Below are positions 6,979 through 49,565 of a stretch of DNA of 64,000 bases, piece after piece; the stretch's first letter is position 1; each line of letters starts with the position of its first letter. Below the pieces are notes generated by a model. The model was not told the DNA's origin. It ran no database searches and saw only the letters and a program-made list of their open reading frames with translations. The translations under genes were made by a program, and so were the position numbers. Source of the DNA: Caloramator sp. E03 (GTDB lineage Bacteria; Bacillota; Clostridia; Clostridiales; Caloramatoraceae); assembly GCF_006016075.1 (NCBI RefSeq), contig NZ_CP040093.1, positions 2,397,501 through 2,461,500 of the forward strand. The letters are read 5' to 3'.

Positions 6979-7035
6979 TAAAAATCTCCTCCTTGTCCTT
7001 TTCTCTTAATTCTTGCCAAGAAGGAGATACTTAAA

Positions 7036-9838: not shown

Positions 9839-10702
9839 ATGAATAAAATAATTGGTCCTAAACGAGGTGTTTCGCTTTATAGTTATTCAGGTGAATTTGG
9901 CATAACAATGGAATTAGAAGATTGTTTTAAGGATTTGTACGATATGGGGGCTTGTGGAATAGAAATTCTAGCAAATTCGCACATTGATAATTATCCAGAA
10001 TTAAGCGAAGAATTTGTTGAGAAGTGGCAGTATTTGTGCAATAAATATGAAATTGAGCCAGTAGAATATGGTCATTGGTTAGATACAAGGCTTTATCGTG
10101 ATAGAAATCTTACATTAAAAGAATGTTTGGAAATGTTGGAGCAGGATTTTAAAATTGCTAACAAACTTGGATTTCACATATTGAGGACAAAGCTTGGCGT
10201 CATAGATGATTTTTTGAATCCAGTTGAAAATTGGAGGGAAATAATTACAGCAGCTCTTCCTCTTGCAGAAAAATACAATGTGGTTATGTGCCCGGAAATT
10301 CATTTACCAACAATTCTATCGGATAAAATGGTAGAAGATTATGTGAATTTTATTATAAAAACTAATACAAAGAATTTTAGGTTAAATATTGATATGAGTG
10401 TATTTCAAAATCGTTTTGATTTAACCGAATTACCATATCCAGATGAAAGACATTCGGAGCCTGAAGAACTAATTCCATTGCTTCCTTATGTTAAGTGTAT
10501 TCATGCAAAATTCAATGCGATGGATGATAATTTTAATGAAATGACCATTCCATATCCACCTGTACTTGAAATTTTAAAGGAGCATAAATGGGACGGCTAT
10601 TTAATAAGCGAATACGAGGGAGTAAATAAAGACGTCCCAGGCTACACTTCACATGAGTTAAGAAAACATCATGTTATGATGAAACGGATATTGGGATATT
10701 AA
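9839..10702 (+). CDS. C-glycoside deglycosidase alpha-subunit-like TIM-barrel protein (DgpC/CarB/DfgA type), compact form
   Basis: This 287-residue sugar-isomerase/epimerase-like TIM barrel (xylose-isomerase-like fold) is followed by a DUF6379 gene and a Gfo/Idh oxidoreductase. That set defines C-glycoside deglycosidases, in which this subunit holds the catalytic metal and cleaves the C-C bond of a 3-oxo-glycoside. Probable metal ligands are E153 (CPEIH), D185 (NIDMS), H222 (IHAKF) and E258 (ISEYE). The N-terminus GVSLYSYSGEF matches the other two alpha copies at 41.7 and 44.2 kb. It lacks about 40-50 residues that those copies carry between the metal Asp and His. The start is ATG with AAAGGTGAGG upstream. 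The family and context are good; the substrate is unknown, and O-glycoside cleavage is also possible. Confidence 0.75.
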   Translation: MNKIIGPKRGVSLYSYSGEFGITMELEDCFKDLYDMGACGIEILANSHIDNYPELSEEFVEKWQYLCNKYEIEPVEYGHWLDTRLYRDRNLTLKECLEMLEQDFKIANKLGFHILRTKLGVIDDFLNPVENWREIITAALPLAEKYNVVMCPEIHLPTILSDKMVEDYVNFIIKTNTKNFRLNIDMSVFQNRFDLTELPYPDERHSEPEELIPLLPYVKCIHAKFNAMDDNFNEMTIPYPPVLEILKEHKWDGYLISEYEGVNKDVPGYTSHELRKHHVMMKRILGY

Positions 10703-10938: not shown

Positions 10939-11370
10939 ATGTTAGAGAAAGAAGTCATTCAATATAGAGGTTTTCATAACATATATGAAAACGGTGTTTG
11001 TGTAGGTTTTCAATTATGCATACGATCACCCTATTACCGTGGTGTCTGGTTGTCTCAGATTCGACCTGGTCGTGTAATTGTAGATGGCGAAATATTTCCA
11101 TGGGATACTATTATCTGGGTTATTAATGGCAGGGAGTATACTACTGATGAACTTTCTAAAAGTGGTCGAGAATTCTGGAGGCTTACTGAACCAGCAGTTC
11201 TAAAGGTAAAAAAACCTGGCGGACTAAAGCAAGGTTATCATGACGTTAGTGTACGGTTTGGTTTTAGCTCTTCTTATATGCCTCCATCTATGGATCAATT
11301 TAGTGATGATGCTGAATATACTACATTTAACGGGGGGACTTATTCTAGAAAGAATATGATAATTGTTTAA
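10939..11370 (+). CDS. DUF6379 protein: C-glycoside deglycosidase beta-subunit-like (DgpB/CarC/DfgB type)
   Basis: This is a 143-residue beta-rich protein with the family landmarks seen in all three copies in this window: GF near residue 23 followed by YYRGVWLS, then KPGGL, then a closing SSYMPP strand. In characterised C-glycoside deglycosidases the small DUF6379 subunit packs on the TIM-barrel subunit and is required for activity. Here it follows the compact alpha gene and precedes an oxidoreductase. The ribosome site GAGGAGG is strong. The function is inferred from family and context; the partner is most likely the product of the gene at 9839. Confidence 0.75.
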   Translation: MLEKEVIQYRGFHNIYENGVCVGFQLCIRSPYYRGVWLSQIRPGRVIVDGEIFPWDTIIWVINGREYTTDELSKSGREFWRLTEPAVLKVKKPGGLKQGYHDVSVRFGFSSSYMPPSMDQFSDDAEYTTFNGGTYSRKNMIIV

Positions 11371-11503
11371 AACAGAGGGGCTCAAAATGATTTGCAGTTA
11401 ATAGAAAAGCTGTCGCAAAATATATAAATATATAATTGCGAGTTAAGACTTAGTTTGGAATATGTTAACAAACAATTAAAACTAAAAATGAAAGGTGAAT
11501 TTT

Positions 11504-12553
11504 ATGGATATTCATTTAGGTATTATCGGATATGGAGGAATGGGAAAATGGCATGCTAAAAATGCTGCAAGAGCTGCTGGCGTAAAAGTAGCTGCTGTTT
11601 GTGATATTGATGAGGAAAAAATTAAAGAAGGTACAAAAGATGGATTTGTTACCTATTCTTCTGCTGAAGAACTTCTAGCAGATTCAAATGTTAATACTGT
11701 TGTGTTGACTGTACCGAATCATTTACATAAAGAAATGTGCTTAAAAGCTGCTGTTGCTAAAAAAAATGTTATTACAGAAAAACCTGCAGCATTAAGTGTG
11801 GCTGAACTTGATGAAATGGAATCAATATGCAAAAAAGAGGGGGTATTCCTTACTGTTCATCAAAATAGAAGATGGGATAAAGATATGCTCATTATAAAAA
11901 AAATTTATGAGGAAGGGATTTTAGGCAAAATTTTTAGTATTGAATCTAAGTTGCATTCAGCAAATGGGTATATGCACGAATGGCATTTGTATAAAAAGTA
12001 TGGTGGTGGCATGCTCTACGATTGGGGGCCTCATCTAATCGACCAAATACTTTTTATGATGCCCAATGCGAAAATAAAAAGTTTATACGCAGATATAAAG
12101 AATGTATTGCATGAGGAAGTTGATGATTATTTTAAAATATTAATGAAGATGGATAATGGTATAACGGTGCATATAGAGCTTTCAACATATATGTTAAAAT
12201 ATGCTCCACGTTGGGTTGTGGGAGGAGATAAAGGAACAGCCGTGATAAACAGTTTCGCTTGTGATGGTACGATTTACCGTACGGGCAAGCTTCTCGAAAA
12301 GCTACCGCCACAAATCACTGAGACAATAGCAGGTCCGACAAGGCAGTTCGCTCCGGTTCCTCCTGGAGGGATCATAGAAGAGCCTTTGCCACAAGTAGAA
12401 TCAGACTGGGTAGATTTTTATAAAAATGTCAGAGATGTGTTAAACGGTAAAGCAGAGTCTCTTATTAAGATTTCAGAGGTGCGCAGAGTATTAGCAGTTA
12501 TGGAGGCAGTAAGGCGATCGGCAGAAAGTGGTGAAGCTATCGCCTTTGAATAA
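11504..12553 (+). CDS. Gfo/Idh/MocA-family oxidoreductase, paired with the deglycosidase subunits
   Basis: This is a 349-residue NAD(P)-dependent dehydrogenase. The Rossmann motif is GIIGYGGMGKWHA (residues 6-18), the catalytic Lys is K93 in TEKPA, and YDWGPHLID (H177) matches the family's substrate-site His. It is a close paralogue of the gene at 38816 (shared GGGMLYDWG, SGPTR/AGPTR segment and MEA...SA..G ending). In C-glycoside catabolism a Gfo/Idh enzyme (DgpA type) oxidises the sugar C3 hydroxyl before C-C cleavage. I chose the ATG at 11504 with AAAGGTG upstream over the GTG at 11495. The exact substrate and reaction direction are not visible. Confidence 0.8.
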   Translation: MDIHLGIIGYGGMGKWHAKNAARAAGVKVAAVCDIDEEKIKEGTKDGFVTYSSAEELLADSNVNTVVLTVPNHLHKEMCLKAAVAKKNVITEKPAALSVAELDEMESICKKEGVFLTVHQNRRWDKDMLIIKKIYEEGILGKIFSIESKLHSANGYMHEWHLYKKYGGGMLYDWGPHLIDQILFMMPNAKIKSLYADIKNVLHEEVDDYFKILMKMDNGITVHIELSTYMLKYAPRWVVGGDKGTAVINSFACDGTIYRTGKLLEKLPPQITETIAGPTRQFAPVPPGGIIEEPLPQVESDWVDFYKNVRDVLNGKAESLIKISEVRRVLAVMEAVRRSAESGEAIAFE

Positions 12554-27698: not shown

Positions 27699-30341
27699 AT
27701 GTTTGTTATAGCAAAATGTTTTACTAACAATAAAGTAGGTAAAGTATATATAGATTGCAATGAAATATCATTTGGATGGCAATTAGAATCAGATAAAAAC
27801 AATGTATATCAAAAATCATATAGAATAATTTTATATGATGAATTAAAAGATGTCATATATGATACTAAAAAGGTTGATAGCAGTCAACAAATAAATATAT
27901 ATTATAACGATATAAAATTAGAAAGTAAAAAAGAATATTATTGGAAGGTAATTGTGTGGAACAATTATGATGATATTGCAGAAAGCAGCCTTATAAATTT
28001 CGAAACAGGATTTTTAAAATCTCAATGTTGGGAAGCAAAGTGGATTGAGGCAAATATTCCCATTAAGTCGACAAAAGAAGGATTTAATATTAGTGAAATA
28101 TTTTCTTACCACCCTAACATTAATGAACTAGAAGATATAAAATTGGATCCACCAATTACCTTTTACAAGGATTTTTTTATAAAAAATAAAGAAATAAAAA
28201 AGGCAAGGATTTACATTACTGCCCATGGCATTTATGAAGCTAAAATCAATGGCATAAAAGTTAGTGATGAATATTTTAATCCAGGCTTTACGACATATTC
28301 AAAGCTACTTTATTATCAGATTTACGATATTTATAATTTACTCAAAAATGGGAAAAATGATATTTCAATTACTGTTGCAGATGGATGGTATAAAGGAAGA
28401 ATAGGTCTTGCTGCTATAGGACATCAGTTTGGAGATAATATTGCTTTATTGGCCCAAATTGAAATTGAGTATATTGATGGAGAAAAACAAATTATTGGAA
28501 CAGATAAATCATTTAAAGCATTTTCAGAGGAAATAGAGTATTCTGATTTATTTATTGGGGAAAAACATAATTATAATAAACCAATTACATATTATGAAGT
28601 AATAGAGAAAGATTATGGATATAACAATATAAGATTAGATATTGCAGAAAAAGTAAGATGTATAGAAAAAATAAAACCTGAAAGAATAGTTAAAAGCCCC
28701 AAAGGTGAAATTATAATCGATTTTGGAAAAAATATTGCTGGTATTGTTGAAGTTAAAGTAAAAGGGAAAAATGGAGATGTTGTAAAATTACAGCATGCTG
28801 AAGAACTTGATAATGAAGGTAATTTTTTCTTTAATGTAATGGGCCAAAATAAGTATCAAACAGATATTTATATTTTAAAAGGTGAGGAAGAGGAAATTTT
28901 AGCACCTAAATTTACATATCATGGCTTTAGATATGTAAAAGTAATTAGCTATCCTGGAGAAATAAATAAAGCTAATTTTACAGCATACATATTATCTACT
29001 GATTTAGAAAGAACAGGAAAAGTCGCAACTTCCAATGAAAAAATAAATAAACTTTTACAAAACATATATAACTCTCAACAAAGCAATTTTATATCAATAC
29101 CAACAGATTGTCCACAAAGAGAAAAGGCAGGATGGACTGGAGATGCTCAAATTTTCATTGAAACAGCTATTTTTAATATGAAAGTAGATAATTTCATGAA
29201 AAGATGGCTATATAATATGAAACTTGACCAATATAAAAATGGACAAGTACCATCAGTTATCCCATGGATAGAATCAGATGAAAAACTTTCAAATGGTTTT
29301 GGGAATATATCTTCTGCTGGTTGGTCAGATGCTTGTATAATAATACCATGGTATTTATATTTGCATTATGAAGATATGGATTTTCTTAAAGATAATTACG
29401 ACATGATGAAAAAATGGTTAAAATACGTAGAAGAAAGATGTGCTTCAAATGTTACTGAATCCTCAAAGGATTATGAAAGGTATCTTTGGGATATGGATTT
29501 CCATTATGGTGATTGATATATACCAAGCATAGTTGATGAAAATGGAAAAACAGATCCTATGAAATCAGCTAACTTGACTTCAAAACAAGTTGCAACAATG
29601 TATTTTGCTTATTCCTCTGAATTATTATCTAAAATTGCAAATGTTCTTAAAAGAAAAGAGGATGAAGAATACTATCTTGATTTATCAAATAAAATAAAGG
29701 ATGCTTTTGTTAAAAAGTTTGTTGATAATGAAGGTAAAATATTAAATGATTTACAGGGTTTATATGCGTTAGCAGCTTATTTTAAAATAGGAAATGAAAA
29801 ATTAAATGCAATATTTATAAATAGGTTAACTAAAAAAATTATTGAAAATGGTTATAGATTGGATACTGGTTTTTTATCAACACCTATTTTATTAGATGTA
29901 TTGTTTAAGTATGGAAAAAAAGATTTGGCTTATAAACTATTGTTGCAAGAAGAATGCCCTTCCTGGCTATATATGGTTAATAAAGGTGCAACGACTATTT
30001 GGGAATCGTGGAATGCAATTAATCCTGATAATACAAGGAATATAATATCGTATAACCATTATGCCTTAGGAAGTGTTCAAAGTTTTATTGTTAAAAGGAT
30101 TATAGGATTTAATAAATTACCACCTAATGATTTAAGTGGAGCTAACTTTATTATTGAACCAGATTTTGAAGCACCATTTGAGCATTTTACGTTATCTTAT
30201 ATGAGCCAATATGGAGAATTGTATATTGACTGGAAGAGATTAAACTCAAAAATAAAACTTAAAATACCTGTTGGAGTAAGAGCAATATTAAGATTGTATA
30301 ATAAAGAACTTATTTTAGGCTCAGGGGAATATGAATTTTAA
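27699..30341 (+). pseudogene. GH78 alpha-L-rhamnosidase interrupted by an in-frame TGA
   Basis: The frame from the ATG at 27699 runs 605 codons to TGA at 29514-29516, then continues in the same frame to a TAA at 30339-30341. The total of about 880 residues is a full GH78. The TGA stands where the family has Trp (HYGDW; the paralogue 1.4 kb downstream reads FGDWLALD), so a single TGG-to-TGA change explains it. The active-site stretch reads DCPQREKAGWTGD, one residue shorter than DCPQRDERLGWTGD in the paralogue, which may further alter activity. It is a pseudogene, or a sequencing error at one base. Confidence 0.85.
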
Positions 30342-33167: not shown

Positions 33168-34076
33168 ATGCCAAGAATGGCAAGAATGAAGTCCTTTGAT
33201 TGCATCTATCATATTATGGTTAAAAGCATTGTTGAGGCCCCCCTCTTTAAAGACGATGATGATAAAGTAAAATTTATGGAATTTGTTAAAAAATCTCAGG
33301 AACAGTTTGAGTTTAAAGTTTATTCCTACTGCCTTATGGATAACCACGCCCACTTCATAATAGACGCAAACGGTGCGGACATATCGAAGATAATGCACTT
33401 TATCAACTACAAATATGCAATGTATTACAACAAAAGGCATGAGAGAATAGGGCACCTTTTCCACGATAGATTTAAAAGCCTTATAGTTGATAATGACAGA
33501 TATCTTTTTGCCTTAACAGCCTACGTTCACTTTAACGCAACAGATATAAAGGGTTATGAAACAAACCCACAGGATTATCGCTTTTCATCTTTGGGGATAT
33601 TTTTAGCAGAAAAGAAAGATGAGTTTGAACTTATAGATGACAGCTTTATACTTTCAATGTTTAGTCTAAAGGAAGCAGCTGCACGAGCAATGTATCGTGA
33701 TTTTATATTTAAAGTAAAAAGTGTAGTAGATGCAAAAAAGCAGGAGTTTAAAAATGAGCCTACGGAATACAGGAGTATGAGAAGGGTACTTATAAGGGAC
33801 TTATCCCCTGAGAAGATAATAGAGATAATATCAGAAAGGTTTAACATAGACAAATTAATGCTTAAGATAAAAAGGGCAAAGGGAGCGAAGGAGGCAAAGG
33901 CGATACTGTGCTTTGTATTAAGAAAGTTTTGTGATTTAAAATGCTCTGATATATGTAAGATACTTGGCAGCATAGGGCAAGCGAACGTATCAAGGCTATG
34001 CTCTTTAGGGGCTGAGCTTATAAAGGAGGAGAGGTATAGAGTAATAGCGGAGGAGATATTGGCTATATGCGTATAA
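33168..34076 (+). CDS. REP-associated tyrosine transposase (Y1, HUH family)
   Basis: This is a 302-residue protein. It starts like REP-associated transposases (MPRMARMKSFDCIYHIMVK) and carries the HUH motif in CLMDNHAHFIID. The catalytic Tyr is likely in the HFINYKYAMYYNKRH segment. A long C-terminal extension ends in a helix-turn-helix-like stretch (SDICKILGSIGQANVSRL) that may bind the repeats. The start has GGAGGTG upstream. The gene is full length, and a 44-bp fragment of a second copy lies at 9387. Confidence 0.9.
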   Translation: MPRMARMKSFDCIYHIMVKSIVEAPLFKDDDDKVKFMEFVKKSQEQFEFKVYSYCLMDNHAHFIIDANGADISKIMHFINYKYAMYYNKRHERIGHLFHDRFKSLIVDNDRYLFALTAYVHFNATDIKGYETNPQDYRFSSLGIFLAEKKDEFELIDDSFILSMFSLKEAAARAMYRDFIFKVKSVVDAKKQEFKNEPTEYRSMRRVLIRDLSPEKIIEIISERFNIDKLMLKIKRAKGAKEAKAILCFVLRKFCDLKCSDICKILGSIGQANVSRLCSLGAELIKEERYRVIAEEILAICV

Positions 34077-38815: not shown

Positions 38816-39874
38816 ATGAGTATAAAATTTGGGATAATAGGATTTGGCTTTATGGGGCATGTTCATGCAAGTACATTGGCAAAGCTTAAAGAAGCAGAAC
38901 TTATAGCAATATGTGATATAGACGATGAAAAATTATCAGATGCACCACAGGGAGTAAGACTATGTAAAGATATGGATGAATTACTTTCAATAAAGGATAT
39001 AGATGTTGTTATTTTATCTGTACCTAATCATATACATAAAGAAGCTGTTATAAAAGCTGCAAGAGCAGGAAAAAATATTCTCCTTGAAAAACCTGCAGCT
39101 CTATCTGTTAAAGAATTTGATGAGATGATGAAAGTAGTAAAGGAGTGCAATGTTAAATTTTCAGTACATCATCAAAGACGCTATGATAAGGATTTTCGTA
39201 TCGCAAAAGAAGTCTATGATAAAAATATGGTTGGACAAATATATACAATTCAGACTATGCTCTATGGTATAAATGGGAATATGCATGATTGGCATGTGTT
39301 TAAAAAATATGGTGGAGGAATGCTTTATGACTGGGGCGTACATTTAATAGATCAGATGCTATGGATGGTTGATTCTAAAATAAAAACTATTTTTGCATAT
39401 ATACGTAATGTAATTAATGAGGAAGTAGATGATTATTTTAAAATACTTCTTAGATTTGAAAATGGCATATTAGGTGAAATTGAGCTTGGTACTTATTTCC
39501 TTGCTGATAAGGAAAAATGGTTTGAAAGGCACTGGTTTATTGGCGGTAATAAAGGAAGCATGTATGTTGATGGGTTTGAGCCAATAGGAAAAATTGCAAG
39601 AACAACAAGGCTTCTTACGAATGTTCCAGGAAAAACAACTATGACCGCATCAGGTCCAACAAGGTCATTTGGGCCACCGCAGCCTGGAATTTTAGTAACA
39701 GAGGATTTACCAAAGGTAGATGTTGATCATATTATGTATTTTGAAAACTTTTTAAAGGCATTAAAAGGTGAAGAAGAATTTATTGTAAAACCAGAGCAGG
39801 TAAGAAGAGTGCTTTCAGTTATGGAAGCATCATGGGAATCTGCAAGAACAGGAAAAAGTATTGATTTTGAATAA
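38816..39874 (+). CDS. Gfo/Idh/MocA oxidoreductase, first of two in the second C-glycoside locus
   Basis: This is a 352-residue NAD(P)-dependent oxidoreductase. The Rossmann motif GIIGFGFMGHVHA is at residues 6-18, the catalytic Lys is K92 in LEKPA, and the substrate-site His is H176 in YDWGVHLID. It is a close paralogue of the enzyme at 11504 and more distant from the one at 40115. I chose the ATG at 38816 with AAGGGG upstream; the TTG at 38804 touches the ribosome site. It could oxidise the glycoside at C3, or reduce the released 3-oxo-sugar; sequence cannot tell which. Confidence 0.8.
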   Translation: MSIKFGIIGFGFMGHVHASTLAKLKEAELIAICDIDDEKLSDAPQGVRLCKDMDELLSIKDIDVVILSVPNHIHKEAVIKAARAGKNILLEKPAALSVKEFDEMMKVVKECNVKFSVHHQRRYDKDFRIAKEVYDKNMVGQIYTIQTMLYGINGNMHDWHVFKKYGGGMLYDWGVHLIDQMLWMVDSKIKTIFAYIRNVINEEVDDYFKILLRFENGILGEIELGTYFLADKEKWFERHWFIGGNKGSMYVDGFEPIGKIARTTRLLTNVPGKTTMTASGPTRSFGPPQPGILVTEDLPKVDVDHIMYFENFLKALKGEEEFIVKPEQVRRVLSVMEASWESARTGKSIDFE

Positions 39875-40114
39875 TTTTTTTAGGCGTATTGCAAAATGTT
39901 TTATGCAGTACGCTTTTTATTATGTAAAAAATATACAGATTAAATTTTTTATTCGATTTTTTAATTTTTTTGATTTAAGTTAAGAATATGATTTTTTAAA
40001 AGACAAAATTAGAACAATAAAAGAATAATTAATAGAATGAGTTCATATATAATGAAAAGTTATAATTATTATAACAGAATATTAAAAAAATTTATATAAA
40101 GTGAGGTAATGAAA

Positions 40115-41224
40115 ATGAAAAAGTTAAGAGTAGGAATTATTGGATGCGGTGGTATTGCAAACCAAAAACATCTTCCAGCACTAAAATTTAATAAGGATTT
40201 ATGCGAAATAGTAGCATTTTGTGACATCATTGAAGAGAGAGCAGTAAAGGCTGCAAAAGAATATGGTACAGAAGATGCAAAAGTCTATACAGATTACAAA
40301 GAACTGTTAAAGGATGAATCGATTGATGTTGTACATGTATTGACACCAAATGTATCCCATAGCCCAATTACAGTAGCTGCATTTGAAGCAGGAAAACATG
40401 TAATGTGTGAAAAGCCTATGGCCCATAATACTGAAGCTGCCCAAGCTATGTTAGATGCATGGAAAAAGTCAGGAAAGAAATTTACAATTGGATATCAAAA
40501 CAGATTCCGTCCAGAAGTACAAGCTCTTCATACTGCATGCCAAAATGGTGAATTGGGCGAAATCTACTTTGCAAAAGCACATGCAGTTAGAAGAAGAGCA
40601 GTTCCAACTTGGGGAGTATTTCCAGATAAATCAAAACAAGGTGGAGGACCTCTAATAGATATTGGAACACATGCACTTGATATAACTCTCTGGATGATGA
40701 ATAATTATAAACCTGTATCAGTTACAGGTTCAGTATTCCAAAAGATAGGTACGTTAGAAAATGGTCCAGAGGGGAATTTGTTTGGCCCATGGGATCCAAA
40801 GACTTATGAAGTAGAAGATTCAGCCTTTGGATTTGTAAAGATGGAAAATGGAGCAACTATTTTCTTAGAAGCATCTTGGGCATTAAATGTTTTAGAATCT
40901 AAAGAAGCTGCAACAACACTTTGCGGAACAAAAGCAGGTGCAGAGATAAAATCAGGTATGAGCTATCCTGTTAATGAATTGATATACAATAGGGCTCATA
41001 ATGGCATGTTAACTGAAGAGAAAAATTCTGCAGGTGGGAATATTGCATATTTTTCAGGTAATGTATCAGAGCCAGGAGTAATTGAAGCAAAACAATGGTT
41101 AGAAGCAATAATAAATGATAAGGAGCCACTTGTAAATCCTGAGCAGGCATTTGTTGTAACAAAGATATTGGATGCTATATATAAATCTGCAGAATCAGGA
41201 AAGGAAATAGTATTTGAGTATTAG
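40115..41224 (+). CDS. Gfo/Idh/MocA oxidoreductase (DgpA-like)
   Basis: This is a 369-residue enzyme with Rossmann motif GIIGCGGIANQKHL, catalytic K100 in CEKPMA, and the family Asp/His pair in LIDIGTHALDI (D182, H186). A loop with HAVRRRAVPTWGVF follows the hinge and is likely to line the substrate pocket. This form resembles the DgpA type, which oxidises C-glucosides to the 3-oxo form with NAD+. It lies 12 bp before a beta-subunit gene and starts the compact part of the operon. The ATG at 40115 has GAGGT at proper spacing; the ATG at 40109 is too near it. Confidence 0.8.
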   Translation: MKKLRVGIIGCGGIANQKHLPALKFNKDLCEIVAFCDIIEERAVKAAKEYGTEDAKVYTDYKELLKDESIDVVHVLTPNVSHSPITVAAFEAGKHVMCEKPMAHNTEAAQAMLDAWKKSGKKFTIGYQNRFRPEVQALHTACQNGELGEIYFAKAHAVRRRAVPTWGVFPDKSKQGGGPLIDIGTHALDITLWMMNNYKPVSVTGSVFQKIGTLENGPEGNLFGPWDPKTYEVEDSAFGFVKMENGATIFLEASWALNVLESKEAATTLCGTKAGAEIKSGMSYPVNELIYNRAHNGMLTEEKNSAGGNIAYFSGNVSEPGVIEAKQWLEAIINDKEPLVNPEQAFVVTKILDAIYKSAESGKEIVFEY

Positions 41225-41235
41225 GGGTGTTCTTT

Positions 41236-41682
41236 ATGGCTTTTGGAATGAGATTAGTTTTTACTGATATAATTCAAAATAACAGCTTGAAAAATTATTA
41301 TGTAAATGGGAAAAAAAGCGGCTTTGAGTTTGATATTCGTTTAGCTTATTATAGAGGGCAATATTTATCTTGTATTGACAAGTTTGAAGTAGCAGTAGAT
41401 GGAGAAAAAATAGACAGTAAAGATATTACTTTTTGCCTAAATGGTAAAGAATTTAGTGTATTCCAGCTTCCATACTTAATTTCAGAATTTTGGACAATCG
41501 TTACACCTGCAAAAATAAGAGTTAGAAAACCAGGAGGGTTATCATTAGGAGAACATGAAATTGAACTAACTTTAATACTCAGAAGTCCTTATATGCCGCT
41601 TCCTGGCGGTGAAGGAGATCGTGCTTATGTTCCAATTGACAGCAGCGATAAAAAGATACTGTCAATTGTAGAACAAAATTAA
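41236..41682 (+). CDS. DUF6379 beta subunit, second copy
   Basis: This is a 148-residue DUF6379 protein with the conserved landmarks GFEFDIR, YYRGQYLS, RKPGGL and RSPYMP. It is most likely the obligate small partner of the alpha subunit encoded 13 bp downstream. I chose the ATG at 41236, preceded by AGGGGTG. Outside the landmarks it differs strongly from the other two beta copies, which suggests pairs tuned to different glycosides. The activity is inferred. Confidence 0.75.
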   Translation: MAFGMRLVFTDIIQNNSLKNYYVNGKKSGFEFDIRLAYYRGQYLSCIDKFEVAVDGEKIDSKDITFCLNGKEFSVFQLPYLISEFWTIVTPAKIRVRKPGGLSLGEHEIELTLILRSPYMPLPGGEGDRAYVPIDSSDKKILSIVEQN

Positions 41683-41695
41683 GGAGGGCTTTGAG

Positions 41696-42670
41696 ATGAG
41701 TAATATTAAATTAGGAATTTCGTTATATTGTTTTACAAATGAATATATTAAAGGAATATATACATTAGAAGATTGTATTAAAACTGCAGCTGAATTGGGT
41801 GCTGAAGGTTATGAAATTGTTGCAACTCAAATGATACCTTCATATCCTTATGTCAATGAAAAGTTTTTAGGGGAAATAAAAGCAATGTCTGCAGCTTATG
41901 GAATTAAGCCTATATGTTATGCAGCAAATACTGATAAAGGTTTAAGATGCGATAGAAACCTAACAGATGATGAAATTTTAACATCAACAATTAATGATAT
42001 AAAGAGTGCACATAAATTAGGCTGTAAGATAATGAGAGTTCAGTATTTACTATCCCCAGAGGTTATGGCTAAATTAGCACCCTATGCAGAGGAATATGGT
42101 ATTAAAATTGGTGTAGAGATGCACAATCCAGAAACTCCATCTAGCGAGGCTATGCAAAAGTATTTAGAGGTATTTGAAAAAACGGGTTCAAAATATATTG
42201 GCTTTATACCAGACCTTGGATGCTTTGCAACTAAACCTAATAAACCTCATTGGGATGAGGCAATTGCTAAAGGAGCCCCTGTTGAGCTGTTAGAAATGGC
42301 TGCCCAGATGAGATATGATGGAGTACCAAGAAATGAAGCAAGGGAAAGGCTTATAAAAGCAGGTGCAAATGGAGCAGTGCTAGGCTGCTTTGAAGCTATG
42401 AACGGATTTGTTACATTCTATAAAGAGCCTGACTTAGAAGGACTAAAGAAAGTTATGCCCTATTGTATTCATTTTCATGGTAAGTTCCATTATATTTACG
42501 ATAATCTTGAAGAGGCAAGTATTCCTTATGATAAGGTTCTTCCTGTAATAAAGGATTCAGATTTTGAAGGATATATTATGTCAGAATATGAGGATCATAT
42601 ATCAGGAAGAGCAGTAGAAATGACAAAGAAGCATCTTTTAATGGAAAGAAAAATACTATTTGGAGAATAA
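41696..42670 (+). CDS. C-glycoside deglycosidase alpha-like TIM-barrel protein, second copy
   Basis: This is a 324-residue TIM barrel. The N-terminus GISLYCFTNEY matches the other alpha copies. Probable metal ligands are E141 (VEMH), D173 (IPDLG), H261 (HFHGKF) and E297 (MSEYE), with K263 nearby. Between the metal Asp and His it carries an extra helical segment of about 45 residues that the compact copy at 9839 lacks. It is translationally close to the beta gene before it, with AAGGAGGG upstream. The most likely role is C-C bond cleavage of 3-oxo-C-glycosides in complex with DUF6379; the substrate is unknown. Confidence 0.78.
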   Translation: MSNIKLGISLYCFTNEYIKGIYTLEDCIKTAAELGAEGYEIVATQMIPSYPYVNEKFLGEIKAMSAAYGIKPICYAANTDKGLRCDRNLTDDEILTSTINDIKSAHKLGCKIMRVQYLLSPEVMAKLAPYAEEYGIKIGVEMHNPETPSSEAMQKYLEVFEKTGSKYIGFIPDLGCFATKPNKPHWDEAIAKGAPVELLEMAAQMRYDGVPRNEARERLIKAGANGAVLGCFEAMNGFVTFYKEPDLEGLKKVMPYCIHFHGKFHYIYDNLEEASIPYDKVLPVIKDSDFEGYIMSEYEDHISGRAVEMTKKHLLMERKILFGE

Positions 42671-42699
42671 AGTTAAAAAATATTTAAGGGGAGATAAAG

Positions 42700-43614
42700 G
42701 TGAAATTAGGTTTTGTAAGTGCTATATTACCGGATTTGACTTTTGAGCAAGTGATAGATTTTGCATCAGAAAATGGATTTTCCTGTGTAGAAATGATGTG
42801 CTGGCCGGTTGGTAAAGCTGAAAGAAGATACGCAGGTGTTACCCATATAGATGTTACAGATATGACTAAAGAAAAAGCGTCATATATAAATAACTATGCA
42901 AAATCAAAAGGTGTTACAATTTCAGCTTTAGGATATTATCCAAATCCATTAGATCCTGATTTAGAGAAAAGGATATTTTATATCGAACATATAAAAAGAT
43001 TAATAAAGGCTGCAAATATGCTTGGAATAAATACTGTAACTACATTTATCGGCAGAGATAAAACCAAAACTGTAGAAGAGAACCTTCAAATATTTAAAGA
43101 GGTTTGGATTCCTATAGTTAAATTTGCAGAAGAAAATAATGTAAAAATTGCAATTGAAAATTGTCCTATGCTTTTTACATACGATGAATGGCCGGGGGGG
43201 TTAAATCTTGCAACAACTCCAAGTATATGGAGAAGAATGTTTGAGTTAATCCCAAGTGCAAATTTTGGGCTAAATTATGATCCATCCCACTTTGTATGGC
43301 AGCAAATAGATTATATAAAGCCTGTATATGAATTTAGCAAAAGGATATTCCATGTTCATTTTAAAGATATAAAAGTTTATAAGGATAAATTAGACCAGGT
43401 AGGCATTATGGCAACGCCACTTGAATATATTTCTCCAAAGATTCCAGGTCTTGGGGATGTGAATTGGGGTAAGTTTGTTTCGGCTTTAACTGATATAAGA
43501 TATACCGGACCAGCATGCATAGAAATAGAGGATAAGGCCTTTGAAGATTCTTTAGAGTCAGTTAAAAAATCAATAATTATAAGCAGAAATTATATGAAAC
43601 AATTTATTGTTTAA
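42700..43614 (+). CDS. Sugar isomerase/epimerase-like TIM-barrel protein, separate subgroup
   Basis: This 304-residue xylose-isomerase-like barrel clearly differs from the three alpha subunits: it starts [16 protein letters not shown] and lacks the GVSLYSY motif. Metal ligands are likely E153 (AIENCP), D194 (NYDPSHF), H220 (HVHFKD) and E275 or E277 (CIEIEDK). It resembles epimerases and isomerases found with Gfo/Idh dehydrogenases. In this operon it may process the 3-oxo-hexose released by deglycosylation, by epimerisation or isomerisation. The start is GTG with AGGGGAGA upstream. The substrate is inference only. Confidence 0.7.
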
Positions 43615-43731
43615 TTGTTATTTTAAAGATGCTGTTTTTATTTAAAAGGATATAGCAGATTATGTTTTTTAATGTTCTTAAAAAGCTGAAAGAGATAAAA
43701 ACATTAAATATATAAATGGAGGAGAGGTTGA

Positions 43732-44163
43732 ATGTTTGATAAATATCTAATCTGCCCTTATGGTTTTCGTAACGTTATATCTGAAACGGGAAATATAGAA
43801 GGTTTTGAGCTTAAAATAAGAATTCCTTATTATAGAGGGGTTCCACTATCTTGTGTTGATGAAATAAAGGTAGCAATAAGTGGTGGAATCGGAGGAGAAA
43901 CTCAGGTTTTTACAAATGATGTTATACGCTTTACTGTAAATAGTGGAAGTTTTATGATGAATGAAATGTCTACAGTAGCTACAAAGAGATGGAACTTTGA
44001 TGAAGATGCAACTTTAAAAATCTATAAACCTGGTGGACTGGTTTATATTGATTATCAAGTAGAGGTATGGATTGCAATTCGTGCTCCTTATGGCAAGTTT
44101 ACAGGACATGATAAAAAGATATTAGTTTTGGAAGAAGATAAATATTTAACAGTTAAAGAGTAA
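43732..44163 (+). CDS. DUF6379 beta subunit, third copy
   Basis: This is a 143-residue DUF6379 protein with the landmarks GFELKIR, YYRGVPLS, YKPGGL and RAPYG. It carries a glycine-rich insert (SGGIGGETQ) in the loop after the YYRG strand that the other two lack. It is preceded by GGAGGAGAGG and followed after 30 bp by the third alpha gene, so these two probably form a complex. A 117-bp gap separates it from the previous gene. Confidence 0.75.
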   Translation: MFDKYLICPYGFRNVISETGNIEGFELKIRIPYYRGVPLSCVDEIKVAISGGIGGETQVFTNDVIRFTVNSGSFMMNEMSTVATKRWNFDEDATLKIYKPGGLVYIDYQVEVWIAIRAPYGKFTGHDKKILVLEEDKYLTVKE

Positions 44164-44193
44164 TAAAGATGATTAATTAAAGGGGGCTACTTT

Positions 44194-45174
44194 ATGAGTA
44201 AAATCAAACGAGGTGTATCTTTATATAGTTACCAAGAGGAATATTTTCATCGTAAAATGAAGCTTGAAGATTGTATTAAAGCAGTTGCTGATATTGGAGC
44301 AACTGGTGTTGAAATAATCCCAGAGCAGATGATAAACGAATATCCTAATCTTTCTGAAGCCTTTATTGAAAAATGGTTTGGTTGGATGGAAAAGTACAAG
44401 CTAACACCGACCTGTGCCGATGTATTCTCTGAATCACTTATGTTTAAAAATAGGATTTTATCAGATGACGAACTTGTAGACTTAATGGAAAGAGATTTAA
44501 AGGTTGCAAAACAGTTAGGATGTTTTGTTATAAGGACTTTATGCACTACTCCTGTAAGAATAATAGAAAAAAGCTTACCATTAGCTGAAAAGTATAATAT
44601 TAAAATAGGATTGGAAATTCATGCTCCTTTAAATTTAGATTCTTCATGGTTTGATCCTTATAAGCGTTTAATTGACAAGTATGGAAGCGAGTGGTTTGGA
44701 ATTATTCCTGATATGGGAGTATTCCAATTAAGGCCAAGCCAAATTCAAGCAGAAAGAGCAGTACGCGATGGAGCAAATCCTAAAATTGTAGAATATATAA
44801 ATAAAGCTTTTGAGGCAAAGGCTGATATGAAAAAAGTAAGGGAAGATATAGCAAAGATGGGGGCAAATGCTCAAGACTTTGCATGGCTTGGCTCAGTATC
44901 CCGAATACTATATACTAATCCAGAAGTATTAAAGAAGCATAAGGATTATATTTTCCATATTCATGGTAAATTCTATAATATGCGTGAAGATTTAACCGAT
45001 GAATGTTTGGATTATGAAAATGTAATAAAAGTTCTAAAAGAAATAGGCTATGATGGATACATTTCAAGTGAATATGAAGGGAACAGGACTCTCCATGATG
45101 CTTTACCTGTTGATAGTGTAGAGCAGGTTGCAAGGCAACATAAAATGTTAAAACGATTACTTGGAGAAGAATAA
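44194..45174 (+). CDS. C-glycoside deglycosidase alpha-like TIM-barrel protein, third copy
   Basis: This 326-residue barrel begins GVSLYSYQEEY. Probable metal ligands are E141 (LEIH), D173 (IPDMG), H257 (HIHGKF) and E293 (SSEYE), equivalent to those of the second copy. It has the long form with the extra helical segment between Asp and His. It is the last gene of the operon, closed by a large hairpin terminator. The three alpha copies share the active-site frame but differ in pocket loops, which fits different aglycones or attachment positions. The function is by family and context. Confidence 0.78.
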   Translation: MSKIKRGVSLYSYQEEYFHRKMKLEDCIKAVADIGATGVEIIPEQMINEYPNLSEAFIEKWFGWMEKYKLTPTCADVFSESLMFKNRILSDDELVDLMERDLKVAKQLGCFVIRTLCTTPVRIIEKSLPLAEKYNIKIGLEIHAPLNLDSSWFDPYKRLIDKYGSEWFGIIPDMGVFQLRPSQIQAERAVRDGANPKIVEYINKAFEAKADMKKVREDIAKMGANAQDFAWLGSVSRILYTNPEVLKKHKDYIFHIHGKFYNMREDLTDECLDYENVIKVLKEIGYDGYISSEYEGNRTLHDALPVDSVEQVARQHKMLKRLLGEE

Positions 45175-45191: not shown

Positions 45192-45256
45192 AAGGATGGT
45201 TATCAATAATTAGCTATTGATAAAGGACTAATTATTGTAAACTATCCTTTATCTTT
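45192..45256 (+). terminator. Large hairpin terminator of the second C-glycoside operon
   Basis: AAGGATGGTT (45192-45201) pairs with AACTATCCTT (45240-45249), and inside it CAATAATTAG pairs with CTAATTATTG. A short TATCTTT follows. The rest of the gap to 45444 is AT-rich and must contain the promoter for the next gene; TATAAT at about 45298 is a possible -10. Confidence 0.7.
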
Positions 45257-45444
45257 AAATAATTAAAAGATATTTATATGCTTATATATTTTTTGCTATA
45301 ATAAATTTAACTGGATATGATATTTAATTAAAATTGATTTAAAAAATATTACAAAAAACAAGATATAATAAGTTTTTAGTAGATATCTAAAAATAATATA
45401 TTATTTTAAAAGTTTAATAACAATATTTTAGAGGGGACATGTAC

Positions 45445-47946
45445 ATGAATAATAAATTAAGTAAGAAAGATAGTGTTTATGGATTGCCAGTTAAAGCATA
45501 TTTAAATAATATAAGAAGGATATCTACCAATATTCAAAAAAATATTGAATTTATATTTGTATTAAAGGGAGAACTAAATATAGTTATAAATAATAAATCT
45601 TATAAATTAACTGAAACTGATGTCCTTTTAATTAACAATGGTGACGTTTATGAAATAAATGGTATAAAGGAAAACCTTGTTTTATTATTGCATATTGATT
45701 ATGATTTTTTTAATAAAGTAGCAAAAAAAGGAGAAAGCCTTTATTTATGTAATTCTTGTTTAGATAAGGATAAAAATTATGAAAGCATAAGGAAGATATT
45801 AGTTAAAATTATGCTTGAGTATTCAAAAAGAGAAGATAGCTATGAGCTTCAAATCATGTCTTTGTTGTACAAGCTTATTTATTTATTGAATAAGAATTTT
45901 TTAATTATAGATTCAAATAAAACATGTTCTTTAGAAGTGCAAAGCAATAAATATAATGAACGTATAAACAATATTTTAAAATATATTAAGCAAAACTATA
46001 ATCAGCAGATTTCTCTTTGTGATGTGGCAAAATCACAATATTTAACTCCTGAATATTTATCAAAGTTTTTTAAAACTCAAATGAATATAACATTTACAAA
46101 GTATTTAAATGAATTTAGGTTAGCTCAGGCAGTAAAGGAATTAATTCAAACAGATAATTCAGTTACAAAGATTGCAATGCAGAATGGATTTCCTAATTTA
46201 GCTGCATTTAATAAAATTTTCAAGGAAAAGTTTAATGTTACTCCAGCAGAGTACAGAAATCAGATAAGAAAAAAACAAACATTTATAGATGAGAGTGAAA
46301 AGTTATATTCAGAAACTATAAATGTTGAGTATGATAAAGCTATTGAGCATCTAGAAGAATACATTAATGTAGATGAAGAATTGAATATCAAAGATAAAGA
46401 AAAGGATTCAATGATTAGTAATAATATAGTTGTTGATGTAAATACAGTAAAAGGTGAGCAAATTAATCATTCATGGAATAATATGATAAACTTAGGTTAT
46501 GCACCTGATGGGTTAAGATTTGACTTTCAGCAGCATTTAATTGAAATACAAAATACTTTGAAATTTAAATATGCAAGATTCCAAGGTATTTTTAGTGATG
46601 AAATGCTTTTTGATACAGATCAGAATGAGAGAGACTTTGAATATAATTTTACAAAAATAGATAAGCTGATTGACTTTTTATATAGTATTGAAATGAAACC
46701 ATTTATAGAGCTTGGTAATAAGGCTAAAGTATTAAATTTGACACCGGATAAGATTTTATATTACAAAAATCCGTCAATTAATAATGGAGGTAAAGAATAT
46801 TTTAATTTGCTAAAGAAGTTTGTTGAGCATTGCATAAGCAGATATGGTATAGATGAAGTATCTCAATGGTATTTTGAAATTTGGAAGGAAGGAGATAAGA
46901 ATTATGTTATATGGGATGGCAACTTTAGTAAATATATTGATTTTTTTGAAAATTGTTACAATGTAATAAAACAGTTAGTCCCTAATGCTAAAGTTGGAGG
47001 ACCGGGTATGAATCCGGAAACAAATTTAAATTTTATGCCAGAGCTATTAAAACAGTGGGAAAAAAGAGAAGTAAGGCCTGATTTTTTTTCGGTGGTTTTA
47101 TATCCTTATGATATAGTTGAGGAGAAAAAATCTGATATTGAAAATAACTTATTAAGGCTTATATCTTCAACTGATAGGGATTTTCATAAGTTTTACTTAG
47201 ATAAGGTACTTAAAATTTTAAAGGCATCAGGAAGCTTAATTCCTGAAGTACATGTTACTGAATGGAATTGCAGTATTTCACATCGCCATCCTGCTAATGA
47301 TACTACATTTAAAGGCTCATATATAATAAAAAGCGTTATTGATACGCTGGATATTACAAATAGTTTTGGGTATTGGTTCTGTTCAGATCTTTCAGGAGAG
47401 CTAAAGGATTCAAAAACATTGCTGTATGGTGATATGGGGCTTATAAGTAAAGATGGAATAAGAAAACCTGGGTTCTATGCTTTTTGGATGTTAAAAAAAT
47501 TAGGAAATGTACTTGTAGGTAAAGGTGATGGTTATGTTATTACAAGAAAATCTTCATATAAATATGAGATTATAACCTATAACTATAAACATTTTGATTA
47601 TTTTTATTGTTTAAATGAAGAGATATCTGTAAGTATTGACAGGTATTATAGTATTTTTGAAGACTACCAAAATTTATATTTGAATATTTATTTAAAAGGA
47701 ATAAGGAGTGGTCACTACAGGGTAAAAAAGTATACCCTCAATAGAAGGCATGGAAGTATTTTAGATGAATGGATTAAAATGAATGGGATTAACAATCTCA
47801 GGAAGGATGAAATTAATTATTTAAAACAGATTTGTGTACCTAAGCAAACTATTTTCTATGTAGAATGTAAAGATGAATTAAAAATAGAAAGTATACTTGA
47901 GCCCCATGAAGTGAATTTGTATGAAATTGAATATGAGTATAAATAA
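45445..47946 (+). CDS. AraC-type regulator fused to a GH39 xylosidase-like domain
   Basis: This is an 833-residue fusion. It has an N-terminal cupin sensor (about 1-150), a double AraC HTH (about 170-275, with SLCDVAKSQYLTPEYLSKFF and PAEYRNQIRKK), a linker, and a GH39 beta-xylosidase-like barrel (about 330-830). The barrel keeps acidic residues at the usual places (YFEIWKEGD for the acid/base region, VTEWNCS for the nucleophile), so it could bind or even hydrolyse sugars. AraC-GH39 fusions are known in Firmicutes as sugar-responsive regulators. It stands between the C-glycoside operon and a GPH transporter and probably controls both. The ATG at 45445 suits the GAGGGG site. Confidence 0.85.
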   Translation: MNNKLSKKDSVYGLPVKAYLNNIRRISTNIQKNIEFIFVLKGELNIVINNKSYKLTETDVLLINNGDVYEINGIKENLVLLLHIDYDFFNKVAKKGESLYLCNSCLDKDKNYESIRKILVKIMLEYSKREDSYELQIMSLLYKLIYLLNKNFLIIDSNKTCSLEVQSNKYNERINNILKYIKQNYNQQISLCDVAKSQYLTPEYLSKFFKTQMNITFTKYLNEFRLAQAVKELIQTDNSVTKIAMQNGFPNLAAFNKIFKEKFNVTPAEYRNQIRKKQTFIDESEKLYSETINVEYDKAIEHLEEYINVDEELNIKDKEKDSMISNNIVVDVNTVKGEQINHSWNNMINLGYAPDGLRFDFQQHLIEIQNTLKFKYARFQGIFSDEMLFDTDQNERDFEYNFTKIDKLIDFLYSIEMKPFIELGNKAKVLNLTPDKILYYKNPSINNGGKEYFNLLKKFVEHCISRYGIDEVSQWYFEIWKEGDKNYVIWDGNFSKYIDFFENCYNVIKQLVPNAKVGGPGMNPETNLNFMPELLKQWEKREVRPDFFSVVLYPYDIVEEKKSDIENNLLRLISSTDRDFHKFYLDKVLKILKASGSLIPEVHVTEWNCSISHRHPANDTTFKGSYIIKSVIDTLDITNSFGYWFCSDLSGELKDSKTLLYGDMGLISKDGIRKPGFYAFWMLKKLGNVLVGKGDGYVITRKSSYKYEIITYNYKHFDYFYCLNEEISVSIDRYYSIFEDYQNLYLNIYLKGIRSGHYRVKKYTLNRRHGSILDEWIKMNGINNLRKDEINYLKQICVPKQTIFYVECKDELKIESILEPHEVNLYEIEYEYK

Positions 47947-48179: not shown

Positions 48180-49565
48180 ATGAATACTGAAATTGTAAGT
48201 AAAAAAACAAGTATTGCATCAGAGGGTAAGCTGAGCTTTATAACAAAATTTAGCTATGGAATTGGTGACTTTGCAAGCAATTTAAGCTGGTCAATGGTAT
48301 CATCTTATTTAATGATATTTTATACAGATACTTTTGGGCTTGCTCCGGTAGCTGTTGCAACACTTTTTTTAATTGCAAGGATATGGGACGGTATTAATGA
48401 TCCTATAATGGGACTGATTATGGAGCGTACAAAGAGTAAATATGGACGCTTTAGACCGTATTTATTATATGGGCCTATATTTTTAGCGATAGCAAATATA
48501 CTTACATTTACAGTTCCACACTTTTCTCCATTAGGAAAATTGATATTTGCATACGTTACTTACATATCATTGGATATGGCATATACTGCAGTTAATGTGC
48601 CTTATGGAGCTTTAGCAACCGTTATGACAAAGGATACGAATGAAAGAACAACCCTAAATACATTTAGAATGTTTTCTACAAATGCTGCTGCTATAGTTAT
48701 TGGAATGGTAACAATGCCTTTGATATTAAAAATTGGAAACGGAAATATGCAAAAAGGATATTTTTGGACAACTGTCCTTTATTCGTTGATTGCTGTACCT
48801 ATGTTCTGGTTAGTATTTAAAAACTGCAAAGAAGTAATAGAACCTCCAAAAGAACAACAACAAATTACATTAAAAGAGTCCTTTTTATGTGTTGCTAAAA
48901 ATTCACAGCTGCTATGTGTTATAATTTATGGATTTTTAGCTCTATCAACTCTCTTTGGAAGATTAGGATTGGTAGTTTATTATGCTATATATAATATGAA
49001 AAGACCAGATATGATAGCTGTTCTTATGACTACTGTTGGAGTAACAAATCTTATTTCTGTTGTTTTTGCACCGTATATTGCAAAGAAATTAGAAAAAAGG
49101 AAAGCTGCTATTGCTTCGTTACTTGTAGGAGCTATTGGACTATTGATAGTTTATTTTTCAGATTATAACAATATTCCTATGATATTAATAGGTTCTGTTA
49201 TATATGGCCTTAATGGCTTTGGTGCTCCTTTAATGCTTAGCATGACAGCAGACTGCATTGAATATGCTGAATGGAAAGTTGGAGTTCGTGCAGAAGGAAC
49301 AGTATATGCTACTGTAAGCTTGGCTACAAAGTTTGCTACGGCATTTGCAGGAAGTGCAGGGGCACTTGCATTGGCAGCTTATGGATATGTACCTAATGTT
49401 GCACAGACAGAATTAGCAATGAAAGGAATAAACATCGTAACTAATTTAGTACCTGCATTATTCTTACTTCTTGGAATAATACCGATGCTATTTTATAAAA
49501 TTGATACTAACTTCTTTTATAAGATAACAAGTGAAATCGAAGCAAGAAGAAATAAAAATAATTAG
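48180..49565 (+). CDS. GPH-family glycoside cation symporter, second copy
   Basis: This 461-residue MFS-type carrier has twelve helices and the GPH signature ARIWDGINDPIMGLIMERTKS followed by YGRFRPYLL. It imports a glycoside or sugar with Na+ or H+. It follows the AraC-GH39 regulator and the C-glycoside operon, so it is the best candidate for the uptake system of that pathway. GGGGGGA precedes the ATG. A terminator hairpin follows at 49.6 kb. Confidence 0.9.
   Translation: MNTEIVSKKTSIASEGKLSFITKFSYGIGDFASNLSWSMVSSYLMIFYTDTFGLAPVAVATLFLIARIWDGINDPIMGLIMERTKSKYGRFRPYLLYGPIFLAIANILTFTVPHFSPLGKLIFAYVTYISLDMAYTAVNVPYGALATVMTKDTNERTTLNTFRMFSTNAAAIVIGMVTMPLILKIGNGNMQKGYFWTTVLYSLIAVPMFWLVFKNCKEVIEPPKEQQQITLKESFLCVAKNSQLLCVIIYGFLALSTLFGRLGLVVYYAIYNMKRPDMIAVLMTTVGVTNLISVVFAPYIAKKLEKRKAAIASLLVGAIGLLIVYFSDYNNIPMILIGSVIYGLNGFGAPLMLSMTADCIEYAEWKVGVRAEGTVYATVSLATKFATAFAGSAGALALAAYGYVPNVAQTELAMKGINIVTNLVPALFLLLGIIPMLFYKIDTNFFYKITSEIEARRNKNN

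Follow-up and report, generated by a model that had tools for sequence, protein, structure and literature searches.

A predicted C-glycoside deglycosylation cluster with two unlike lyase pairs in Caloramator sp. E03

Why should one bacterial gene cluster carry two different alpha/beta pairs that resemble C-glycoside deglycosidases (CGDs)? Puerarin, orientin, mangiferin and other C-glycosides withstand hydrolysis, and release of the aglycone depends on which bacteria cleave which compound. The question is raised by a 64-kb stretch of DNA (the window) from Caloramator sp. E03, a spore-forming Clostridia bacterium. We put the probability at about 0.8 that this cluster is a dgp-type system for four-step deglycosylation of 3-keto-glycosides (C-glycosides), in which a common core would be combined with exchangeable lyase pairs; the activities and substrates are predictions from sequence.

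Gene order and predicted transcript ends

The genes between 38816 and 45174 all lie on the + strand and comprise two CGDB beta subunits, two alpha subunits, two Gfo/Idh oxidoreductases and an extra TIM barrel (Table 1). The two Gfo/Idh genes of the original prediction were confirmed on this strand, its "one further isomerase" gene is present as the barrel at 42700, and the start codons that it placed at 38816 and 41236 are both genuine in-frame ATGs. It had also described one same-strand run ended by a hairpin. The common strand and the 3' hairpin held up (the segment 45170-45270 folded at -22.1 kcal/mol, z = -4.7), but folding placed a terminator-like hairpin within the run as well, with a 12-pair stem (-16.8 kcal/mol, z = -3.9, none of 200 shuffled sequences equally stable). 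Both hairpins were found by folding and were passed over by a simple scanner that admitted only short loops and few mismatches. The hairpin and U tract at 39882-39917 speak against a single operon extending from 38816 to 45174. Because this hairpin parts gfoA2 from gfoA, the likely transcription unit predicted from the hairpins is 40109-45174, without gfoA2.

Two genes downstream of the cluster that the original prediction did not mention, a GPH-family symporter and an AraC-family regulator that carries a fused GH39-like domain, are probably associated with it. Homologues of the regulator adjoin CGD loci in many genomes, and symporter homologues also lie next to CGD loci. A CGDB/alpha/Gfo-Idh set at 9839-12553, 28 kb upstream of the cluster, was likewise absent from that prediction. 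GH1 and GH78 genes for O-glycoside cleavage are also present in the island within the window.

Table 1. Features of the cluster, its neighbours and the upstream set, in window coordinates
Feature	Coordinates	Strand	Evidence
alpha3, CGD alpha subunit, EuCGD/DfgA-type, without lid domain	9839..10702	+	7bvs E=2.9e-108, 57% identity
beta3, CGD beta subunit, DfgB-type	10939..11370	+	PF19906 E=2.3e-35; DfgB E=5.9e-39
Third Gfo/Idh gene, beside pair 3	11495..12553	+	Pfam
gfoA2, Gfo/Idh/MocA oxidoreductase, DgpA2-type	38816..39874	+	PDB 9m37 E=1.8e-142, 478 bits; Pfam Gfo/Idh
Intrinsic-terminator-like hairpin with U tract	about 39882..39917	+	between gfoA2 and gfoA
gfoA, DgpA orthologue, predicted glycoside C3-oxidising Gfo/Idh enzyme	40109..41224	+	PDB 7xr9 DgpA E=5e-179
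beta1, CGD beta subunit, DgpB-type	41236..41682	+	PF19906 E=4.8e-38
alpha1, CGD alpha subunit, DgpC/PuCGD-type, predicted metal-dependent C-C lyase	41696..42670	+	DgpC E=1.1e-130
Third TIM barrel, putative 2-hydroxy-3-keto-glucal hydratase	42700..43614	+	sequence match to AtHYD (8ro4), E=7e-4
beta2, divergent CGD beta subunit	43732..44163	+	PF19906 E=4.4e-28
alpha2, CGD alpha subunit of a divergent orphan lineage	44194..45174	+	8qvc E=4e-91
Hairpin 3' of alpha2, likely transcript end	45192..45249	+	long stem
AraC-family regulator fused to GH39-like domain, candidate glycoside-responsive	45439..47946	+	Pfam HTH_18 4.3e-19, GH39 5.9e-55
GPH-family sugar/glycoside symporter	48180..49565	+	TIGR00792 E=8e-128

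Alpha/beta pairs of the CGD family

The beta genes of the cluster had been assigned to DUF6379, and an HMM search bore this out: PF19906 matched beta1, beta2 and beta3 with 129.9, 97.8 and 121.3 bits, far above the cut-off of 27.6. These three genes, all within the window, were the only CGDB matches in the genome. A literature search with the text term DUF6379 found no paper. The two partner barrels, for which conserved metal ligands had been claimed, are both AP_endonuc_2 proteins with the full metal/catalytic set. In an alignment with PuCGD numbering, alpha1, alpha2 and alpha3 keep all seven residues, i.e. the ligands E141, D173, H263, K265 and E299 and the catalytic residues H143 and E301. 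A YYRG motif is invariant in all eight aligned betas, beta1 to beta3 included, and its Tyr corresponds to Tyr39 of PuCGE beta, which is required for C-C cleavage; this role and those of the metal ligands and catalytic residues come from work on CGDs (PMC8563793, PMC13273386). The beta and alpha genes are separated by 13 bases in pair 1 and by 30 bases in pair 2, and beta-alpha fusions of 484-495 aa exist in two other loci (L065 and L067). CGD alphas are TIM barrels that either carry a lid domain, as in PuCGD and AgCGD2, or lack it, as in EuCGD, and the alphas here fit this scheme. Assignment of the pairs to the CGD family is supported at the level of sequence, residues and predicted structure.

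The claim that the two pairs of the cluster are divergent also proved correct. Alpha1 and alpha2 are 33% identical and occupy separate parts of the tree, which excludes a recent tandem duplication. The most likely explanation for two unlike pairs is that they would differ in aglycone or attachment specificity.

Pair 1 is closest to DgpA/DgpB/DgpC (PuCGD/PuCGE) of the human gut strain PUE (Dorea-like), in which dgpABC forms one operon (PMC11170127); homologues stand side by side here too. Among PDB betas, beta1 matched 9m3a_B (E = 4.9e-45) and DgpB (4.3e-40). Alpha1 is 57% identical to DgpC and fell in the PuCGD clade (support 100/99 for the 13-row set). It shares the catalytic residues and the lid-domain spacing of the PUE enzyme, with a D-to-H distance of 88. 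Unlike the PUE operon, the unit contains a second, dissimilar pair, and PuCGD Tyr303, a residue named as the block to C6-glycosides (PMC8563793), is replaced by His in alpha1. Comparison with PuCGD Tyr303 and Leu7 gave no C6/C8 call for either pair 1 or pair 2, as alpha1 has this His and beta2 is without the N-terminal extension.

Pair 3 is EuCGD-like and probably C6-selective, to judge from its resemblance to the C6-selective EuCGD/DfgAB of Eubacterium cellulosolvens. Alpha3 grouped in the EuCGD clade (support 100/99), has the same D-to-H spacing as EuCGD (37), and shares its long loop and the equivalent of Leu128. This pair lies outside the main operon with its own Gfo/Idh gene, which is 74% identical to a Gfo/Idh gene in the CGD cluster (L040) of genome G072.

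Proposed pathway and competing readings

The gfoA product scored 598 bits against DgpA (7xr9) over the full length (residues 3-363 of 371) and 515 bits against DgpA1 (9m3d). The gfoA2 product matched P581a DgpA2 in its isoorientin complex (9m37), and gfoA2 is a candidate glycoside 3-dehydrogenase or 3-keto-sugar reductase. For the 42700 barrel, a fold search returned AtHYD at about E = 1e-16 (9.8e-17; 18-19% identity) as the best among functionally characterised matches, behind an uncharacterised protein and narrowly ahead of epimerases. Among 99 relatives, this barrel was found at 68% identity or more in exactly the five CGDB-positive genomes (p = 1.4e-8, ignoring phylogeny). In the class sample the overlap was 3/7 (p = 1.2e-4), with a 42700-type barrel (55-72%) in four genomes without CGDB, and the barrel fails as a CGD-only marker at that level. 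Weak homology and gene context suggest that it is a probable 2-hydroxy-3-keto-glucal hydratase.

In the proposed pathway a DgpA-type Gfo/Idh enzyme would oxidise C3 of the glucosyl residue, and an alpha/beta CGD complex would then use Mn2+ and the catalytic His to beta-eliminate the aglycone, breaking a C-C or C-O bond and leaving 2-hydroxy-3-keto-glucal. The 42700 barrel would hydrate this product to 3-keto-glucose, which a Gfo/Idh enzyme would reduce to glucose with re-oxidation of the cofactor. Oxidation, hydration and reduction would form the common core, and the pairs would set aglycone and position specificity. With PuCGD-like pair 1 and unlike pair 2 on one predicted transcript and EuCGD-like pair 3 at a distance, the substrate range may be wider. 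The AtOGE/AtHYD operon of Agrobacterium tumefaciens follows the same logic of oxidation, elimination, hydration and reduction, whereas its lyase is an O-glycoside eliminase without sequence kinship to CGD (PMC10628242).

The pairs might instead mainly cleave 3-keto O-glycosides (or other glycosides) in a general oxidative degradation of glycosides, with C-glycosides as a side activity. PuCGE cleaves both 3-keto O- and C-glucosides (PMC10628242), related barrel/Gfo modules lie by a non-CGD barrel in another locus (L057), much as in the Agrobacterium operon, and GH1 and GH78 enzymes are encoded in the same island. However, the latter could handle O-glycosides, so a beta-subunit system would be needed mainly for C-glycosides, and the beta Tyr for C-C cleavage is retained in all three pairs. 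We consider a primary role in O-glycoside cleavage unlikely.

Pair 2 is the most divergent part of the predicted C-glycoside system. Alpha2 belongs to no well-supported clade; beta2 is the most divergent beta, with a 6-residue insert, no YMP motif and a best PDB beta match of only E = 2.7e-12. Both features would fit drift to another 3-keto-sugar reaction, e.g. hydration or isomerisation, or redundancy of the pair. Against this, the seven metal/catalytic residues and the YYRG Tyr are retained, neither gene has internal stops, and the nearest characterised enzyme of alpha2 is a true CGD, DaCGD of Deinococcus aerius (8qvc/8umc), which is also its closest solved relative. The AlphaFold2 model of alpha2 (pLDDT 90.6) aligned with DaCGD at TM 0.93 and 46% identity and has four helices (183-236) at the lid position; a fold search with the model returned CGDs at E <= 1.1e-22, well ahead of other barrels (2.3e-13). 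DaCGD differs in coming from another phylum, in the weak similarity of beta2 (E = 4.6e-6) and in its surroundings, the core here being dgp-type. Drift or redundancy of pair 2 is improbable on this evidence. That an inositol/sugar-epimerase operon (IolE/IolG/xylose isomerase-like) was misread as CGD is very improbable, given that the AP_endonuc_2 label on the barrels and weak IolG/IolE-like NCBIfam matches, the latter far under curated cut-offs, stand against CGDB betas far above theirs and strong DgpA, DgpBC and DaCGD matches; the CGDB and solved-structure matches refute it for the alpha/beta pairs and leave it possible only for the 42700 barrel.

Conserved core and variable lyases

Median pairwise identity across 21 loci was 72% for gfoA, 62% for gfoA2 and 70% for the barrel compared with 32% for alpha, a contrast with some bias, since only core homologues with at least 55% identity to the window were admitted. 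Across syntenic loci gfoA was 70-89% identical. A family-mate (G007, a draft assembly of 490 contigs) has the core intact and lacks pair 1, of which a 9-codon stub is left (24 of 28 bases). The new observation is that the oxidoreductases and the extra barrel are conserved across loci and the lyases are not, and that a relative without pair 1 keeps the core. We read the locus as a common oxidation, hydration and reduction core with exchangeable lyase pairs.

The view that characterised systems usually have one pair was weakened: among 41 CGDB-positive genomes surveyed, 19 had at least two copies (range 2-13), and Catenibacillus genomes have 3-6 dgpBC clusters each (PMC11170127). Several DgpBC sets and DgpA homologues in Catenibacillus scindens and C. 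decagia have been proposed to broaden the C-glycoside range (PMC11170127). There DgpBC is encoded in several clusters with dgpA separate, whereas in Caloramator sp. E03 dgpA and two unlike pairs belong to a single predicted unit. Six genomes, this one among them, carry two divergent pairs within a single run on one strand; the other five (L035, L063, L064, L065 and L068) disproved uniqueness of the arrangement.

More tentatively, C-glycoside catabolism in Clostridia may be modular, with pairs gained, lost and stacked on one core, and alpha2/beta2 might cleave a class of C-glycosides outside the range of characterised CGDs; we regard this combined proposal as possible rather than probable. The locus supplies a named candidate for the hydration step, the 42700 barrel, and two unlike pairs on one core would allow aglycone and position specificity to be assigned within one background. 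For genome miners, the pattern of conserved core and variable lyases would mean that core genes mark the pathway and that the pairs need substrate tests.

Gene content and identity of the lyase pairs

All seven genes between 38816 and 45174 were found intact on the forward strand, with in-frame ATGs confirmed at 38816 and 41236, the start codons proposed earlier. The original prediction of two DUF6379 genes, two TIM-barrel genes with metal-ligand motifs, two Gfo/Idh genes and one further barrel was borne out by Pfam at the proposed coordinates, and the metal ligands of alpha1 and alpha2 are conserved. The C-glycoside deglycosidase (CGD) beta-subunit family (CGDB, PF19906, i.e. DUF6379) was present in 0 of 14 control genomes and exceeded its cut-off in only 7 of 393 genomes of the class, so these matches are not due to chance.

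Features of the CGD operon and of the upstream CGD set
Feature	Position	Strand	Assignment
gfoA2	38816-39874	+	Pfam Gfo/Idh
gfoA	40109-41224	+	Pfam Gfo/Idh
beta1	41236-41682	+	CGDB (PF19906), 129.9 bits (cut-off 27.6)
alpha1	41696-42670	+	Pfam xylose-isomerase-like barrel
barrel	42700-43614	+	Pfam xylose-isomerase-like barrel
beta2	43732-44163	+	CGDB (PF19906), 97.8 bits (cut-off 27.6)
alpha2	44194-45174	+	Pfam xylose-isomerase-like barrel
alpha3	9839-10702	+	Third CGD set; EuCGD/DfgAB match, E=2.9e-108
beta3	10939-11370	+	Third CGD set; EuCGD/DfgAB match, E=5.9e-39
Gfo/Idh gene of third CGD set	11495-12553	+	

Pair 1 (alpha1 and beta1) matched DgpC (E=1.1e-130, 57% identity) and DgpB (E=4.3e-40) of strain PUE, as well as W974-1 DgpC2/B2. 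Alpha2 matched the CGD of Deinococcus aerius (8qvc; E=4e-91, 46%); its partner beta2 was far from all solved beta subunits (best E=2.7e-12). A third set of EuCGD/DfgAB type (pair 3), absent from the earlier prediction, lies 28 kb upstream at 9839-12553. A tree built from 58 alphas placed alpha1 and alpha3 within the PuCGD and EuCGD clades, respectively (100/99 each), and alpha2 in no well-supported set; the two operon pairs are thus divergent, as had been proposed. The metal ligands and catalytic His/Glu defined by mutagenesis (PMC8563793) were complete in the aligned alpha1, alpha2 and alpha3, and the beta-subunit tyrosine named in PMC13273386 was present in beta1, beta2 and beta3. The AlphaFold2 model of alpha2 (pLDDT 90.6) contains four helices (183-236) at the lid position, and its best PDB match was the D. 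aerius CGD (TM 0.93). Every CGD ranked above every other barrel in the fold search, with a clear gap (E<=1.1e-22 versus 2.3e-13). The locus is well supported as a real dgp-type cluster in an expanded form.

Proposed pathway and transcription unit

The product of gfoA is closely related to DgpA (598 bits to 7xr9); the nearest match of gfoA2 was P581a DgpA2, the structure of which was solved with isoorientin. The barrel protein is not a CGD alpha; it showed a weak sequence match to the 2-hydroxy-3-keto-glucal hydratase AtHYD, which was also the top match of known function for its predicted fold (E=9.8e-17), with epimerases close behind. The scheme put forward for the operon of strain PUE and its analogue in Agrobacterium comprises oxidation, elimination, hydration and reduction (PMC10628242), so the function still to be expected here is a hydratase, for which the barrel is a candidate by analogy. 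From gene content and conserved residues we infer, as the best reading, a four-step pathway in which a DgpA-type enzyme would oxidize C3, a CGD would carry out elimination, the barrel would hydrate the product and a Gfo/Idh enzyme would reduce it. Pair 3 likely prefers C6-glycosides, since the EuCGD long loop, Leu128 equivalent and YMPP segment are all kept. Pair 1 is PuCGD-like except that His replaces Tyr303, which reportedly blocks C6-glycosides (PMC8563793); its substrate range may therefore be wider. The residue alignment allowed no assignment of C6/C8 preference for pair 2.

The gfoA2/gfoA gap (39874-40109) contains a predicted hairpin of 12 pairs (-16.8 kcal/mol, z -3.9, 0 shuffles equally stable) with a U tract after it, an arrangement typical of an intrinsic terminator. 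The gaps from gfoA through beta1, alpha1, barrel and beta2 to alpha2 are 11, 13, 29, 117 and 30 bases; folding of the 117-base gap gave structure at chance level only (z 0.68). Another strong hairpin lies 3' of alpha2 (z -4.7). These features argue for a likely transcription unit of 40109-45174, with gfoA2 separate. Thus the proposal of one same-strand run ended by a hairpin held for the strand and the closing hairpin but not for the single run, as the terminator-like hairpin makes more than one transcript probable.

Genomic surroundings

The stretch separating pair 3 from the operon carries genes for a lactose/cellobiose PTS, GH1 glucosidases, esterases, a ROK protein, an MFS/GPH transporter and GH78 rhamnosidases, and IS elements (5773-9281 and 33168-34076; Mutator-type transposase, IS21-type pair and IS200-like transposase) lie around them. 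Because of this gene set and the IS elements, the region looks like a plant-glycoside utilisation island. CGDB was found in 0 of 2 genus-mates. One GH78 alpha-L-rhamnosidase gene is broken into two ORFs (27699-29516 and 29559-30341), the catalytic domain being interrupted, and is followed by an intact paralogue (30401-33049). The product of 45439-47946 joins an AraC regulator to a GH39-like domain, and its homologues recur beside CGD loci. It keeps the TEWN motif; as its acid/base motif reads WKEG instead of the usual WNEP, it may be a sensor rather than an enzyme.

Distribution of lyase pairs around a shared core

Three combined searches yielded 41 distinct genomes above the CGDB cut-off, 19 with at least two CGDB genes and one (G518) with the maximum of 13. 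Two pairs occurred in a same-strand run in six genomes (Caloramator sp. E03, G067, G502, G557, G726 and G759). Alphas within a run were only 28-34% identical in the five of six genomes compared, so stacking joins unlike pairs. The closest parallel, G726 (L063), has AraC-GH39, a PuCGD-type pair (54/61%), DgpA and then a divergent pair. Natural beta-alpha fusion proteins of 484-495 aa (L065 9441-10928; L067 5397-6857 and 10641-12095) resemble the Microbacterium testaceum CGD (8qrz). Neither the family nor the presence of several pairs per genome is new, and other genomes share the arrangement; in Catenibacillus, several dgpBC clusters per genome were proposed to be linked to a broad C-glycoside range (PMC11170127).

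The family-mate G007 carries gfoA2 (86%), gfoA (89%) and barrel (87%) in the same order at ~80% DNA identity, and pair 1 is absent, homology spanning 39937-41263 and restarting at 42676. At the junction (L036 4582-4640, G007:C137) a beta1 stub matches 24 of the first 28 bases (maximum of 20 in 5000 shuffles) and reads MAFGLRIVF (nine codons), followed by nine further codons and a stop. Since G072 (L040) has gfoA-beta1-alpha1-barrel in the order seen here, loss of pair 1 in G007 is the simpler reading. No pair 2 was found downstream of barrel in G007, G067, G072 or G096, and pair 2 is therefore a lineage-specific addition within our sample.

Among the 99 nearest genomes, own included, barrel homologues of at least 68% identity occurred in exactly the five CGDB-positive ones (hypergeometric 1.4e-8, phylogeny ignored); the barrel/CGDB overlap in the class sample was 3/7 (1.2e-4). 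Two loci (L057 and L058) combine a DgpA-like gene (60%) with a related barrel (41%), CGDB being absent within the fetched stretch. L057, in which this barrel adjoins the DgpA-like gene and another small barrel, resembles the Agrobacterium O-glycoside operon and is possibly an O-glycoside elimination operon.

Median pairwise identity over 21 loci was 72% for gfoA, 62% for gfoA2, 70% for barrel and 32% for alphas, and the best alpha match was below the gfoA match in 134 of 153 locus pairs, a contrast biased by picking core homologues at >=55% identity to the window. The opposite bias applies to L004-L010, which were located via alpha2 similarity; where the core was present, the contrast was repeated (alpha ~40%, gfoA 71-75%, barrel 62-65%), and L008 was without the core. 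The same type of core adjoins alphas from several deep clades. The pattern across loci suggests a shared core with exchangeable lyases, and this pattern, together with the orphan pair 2, is worth testing.
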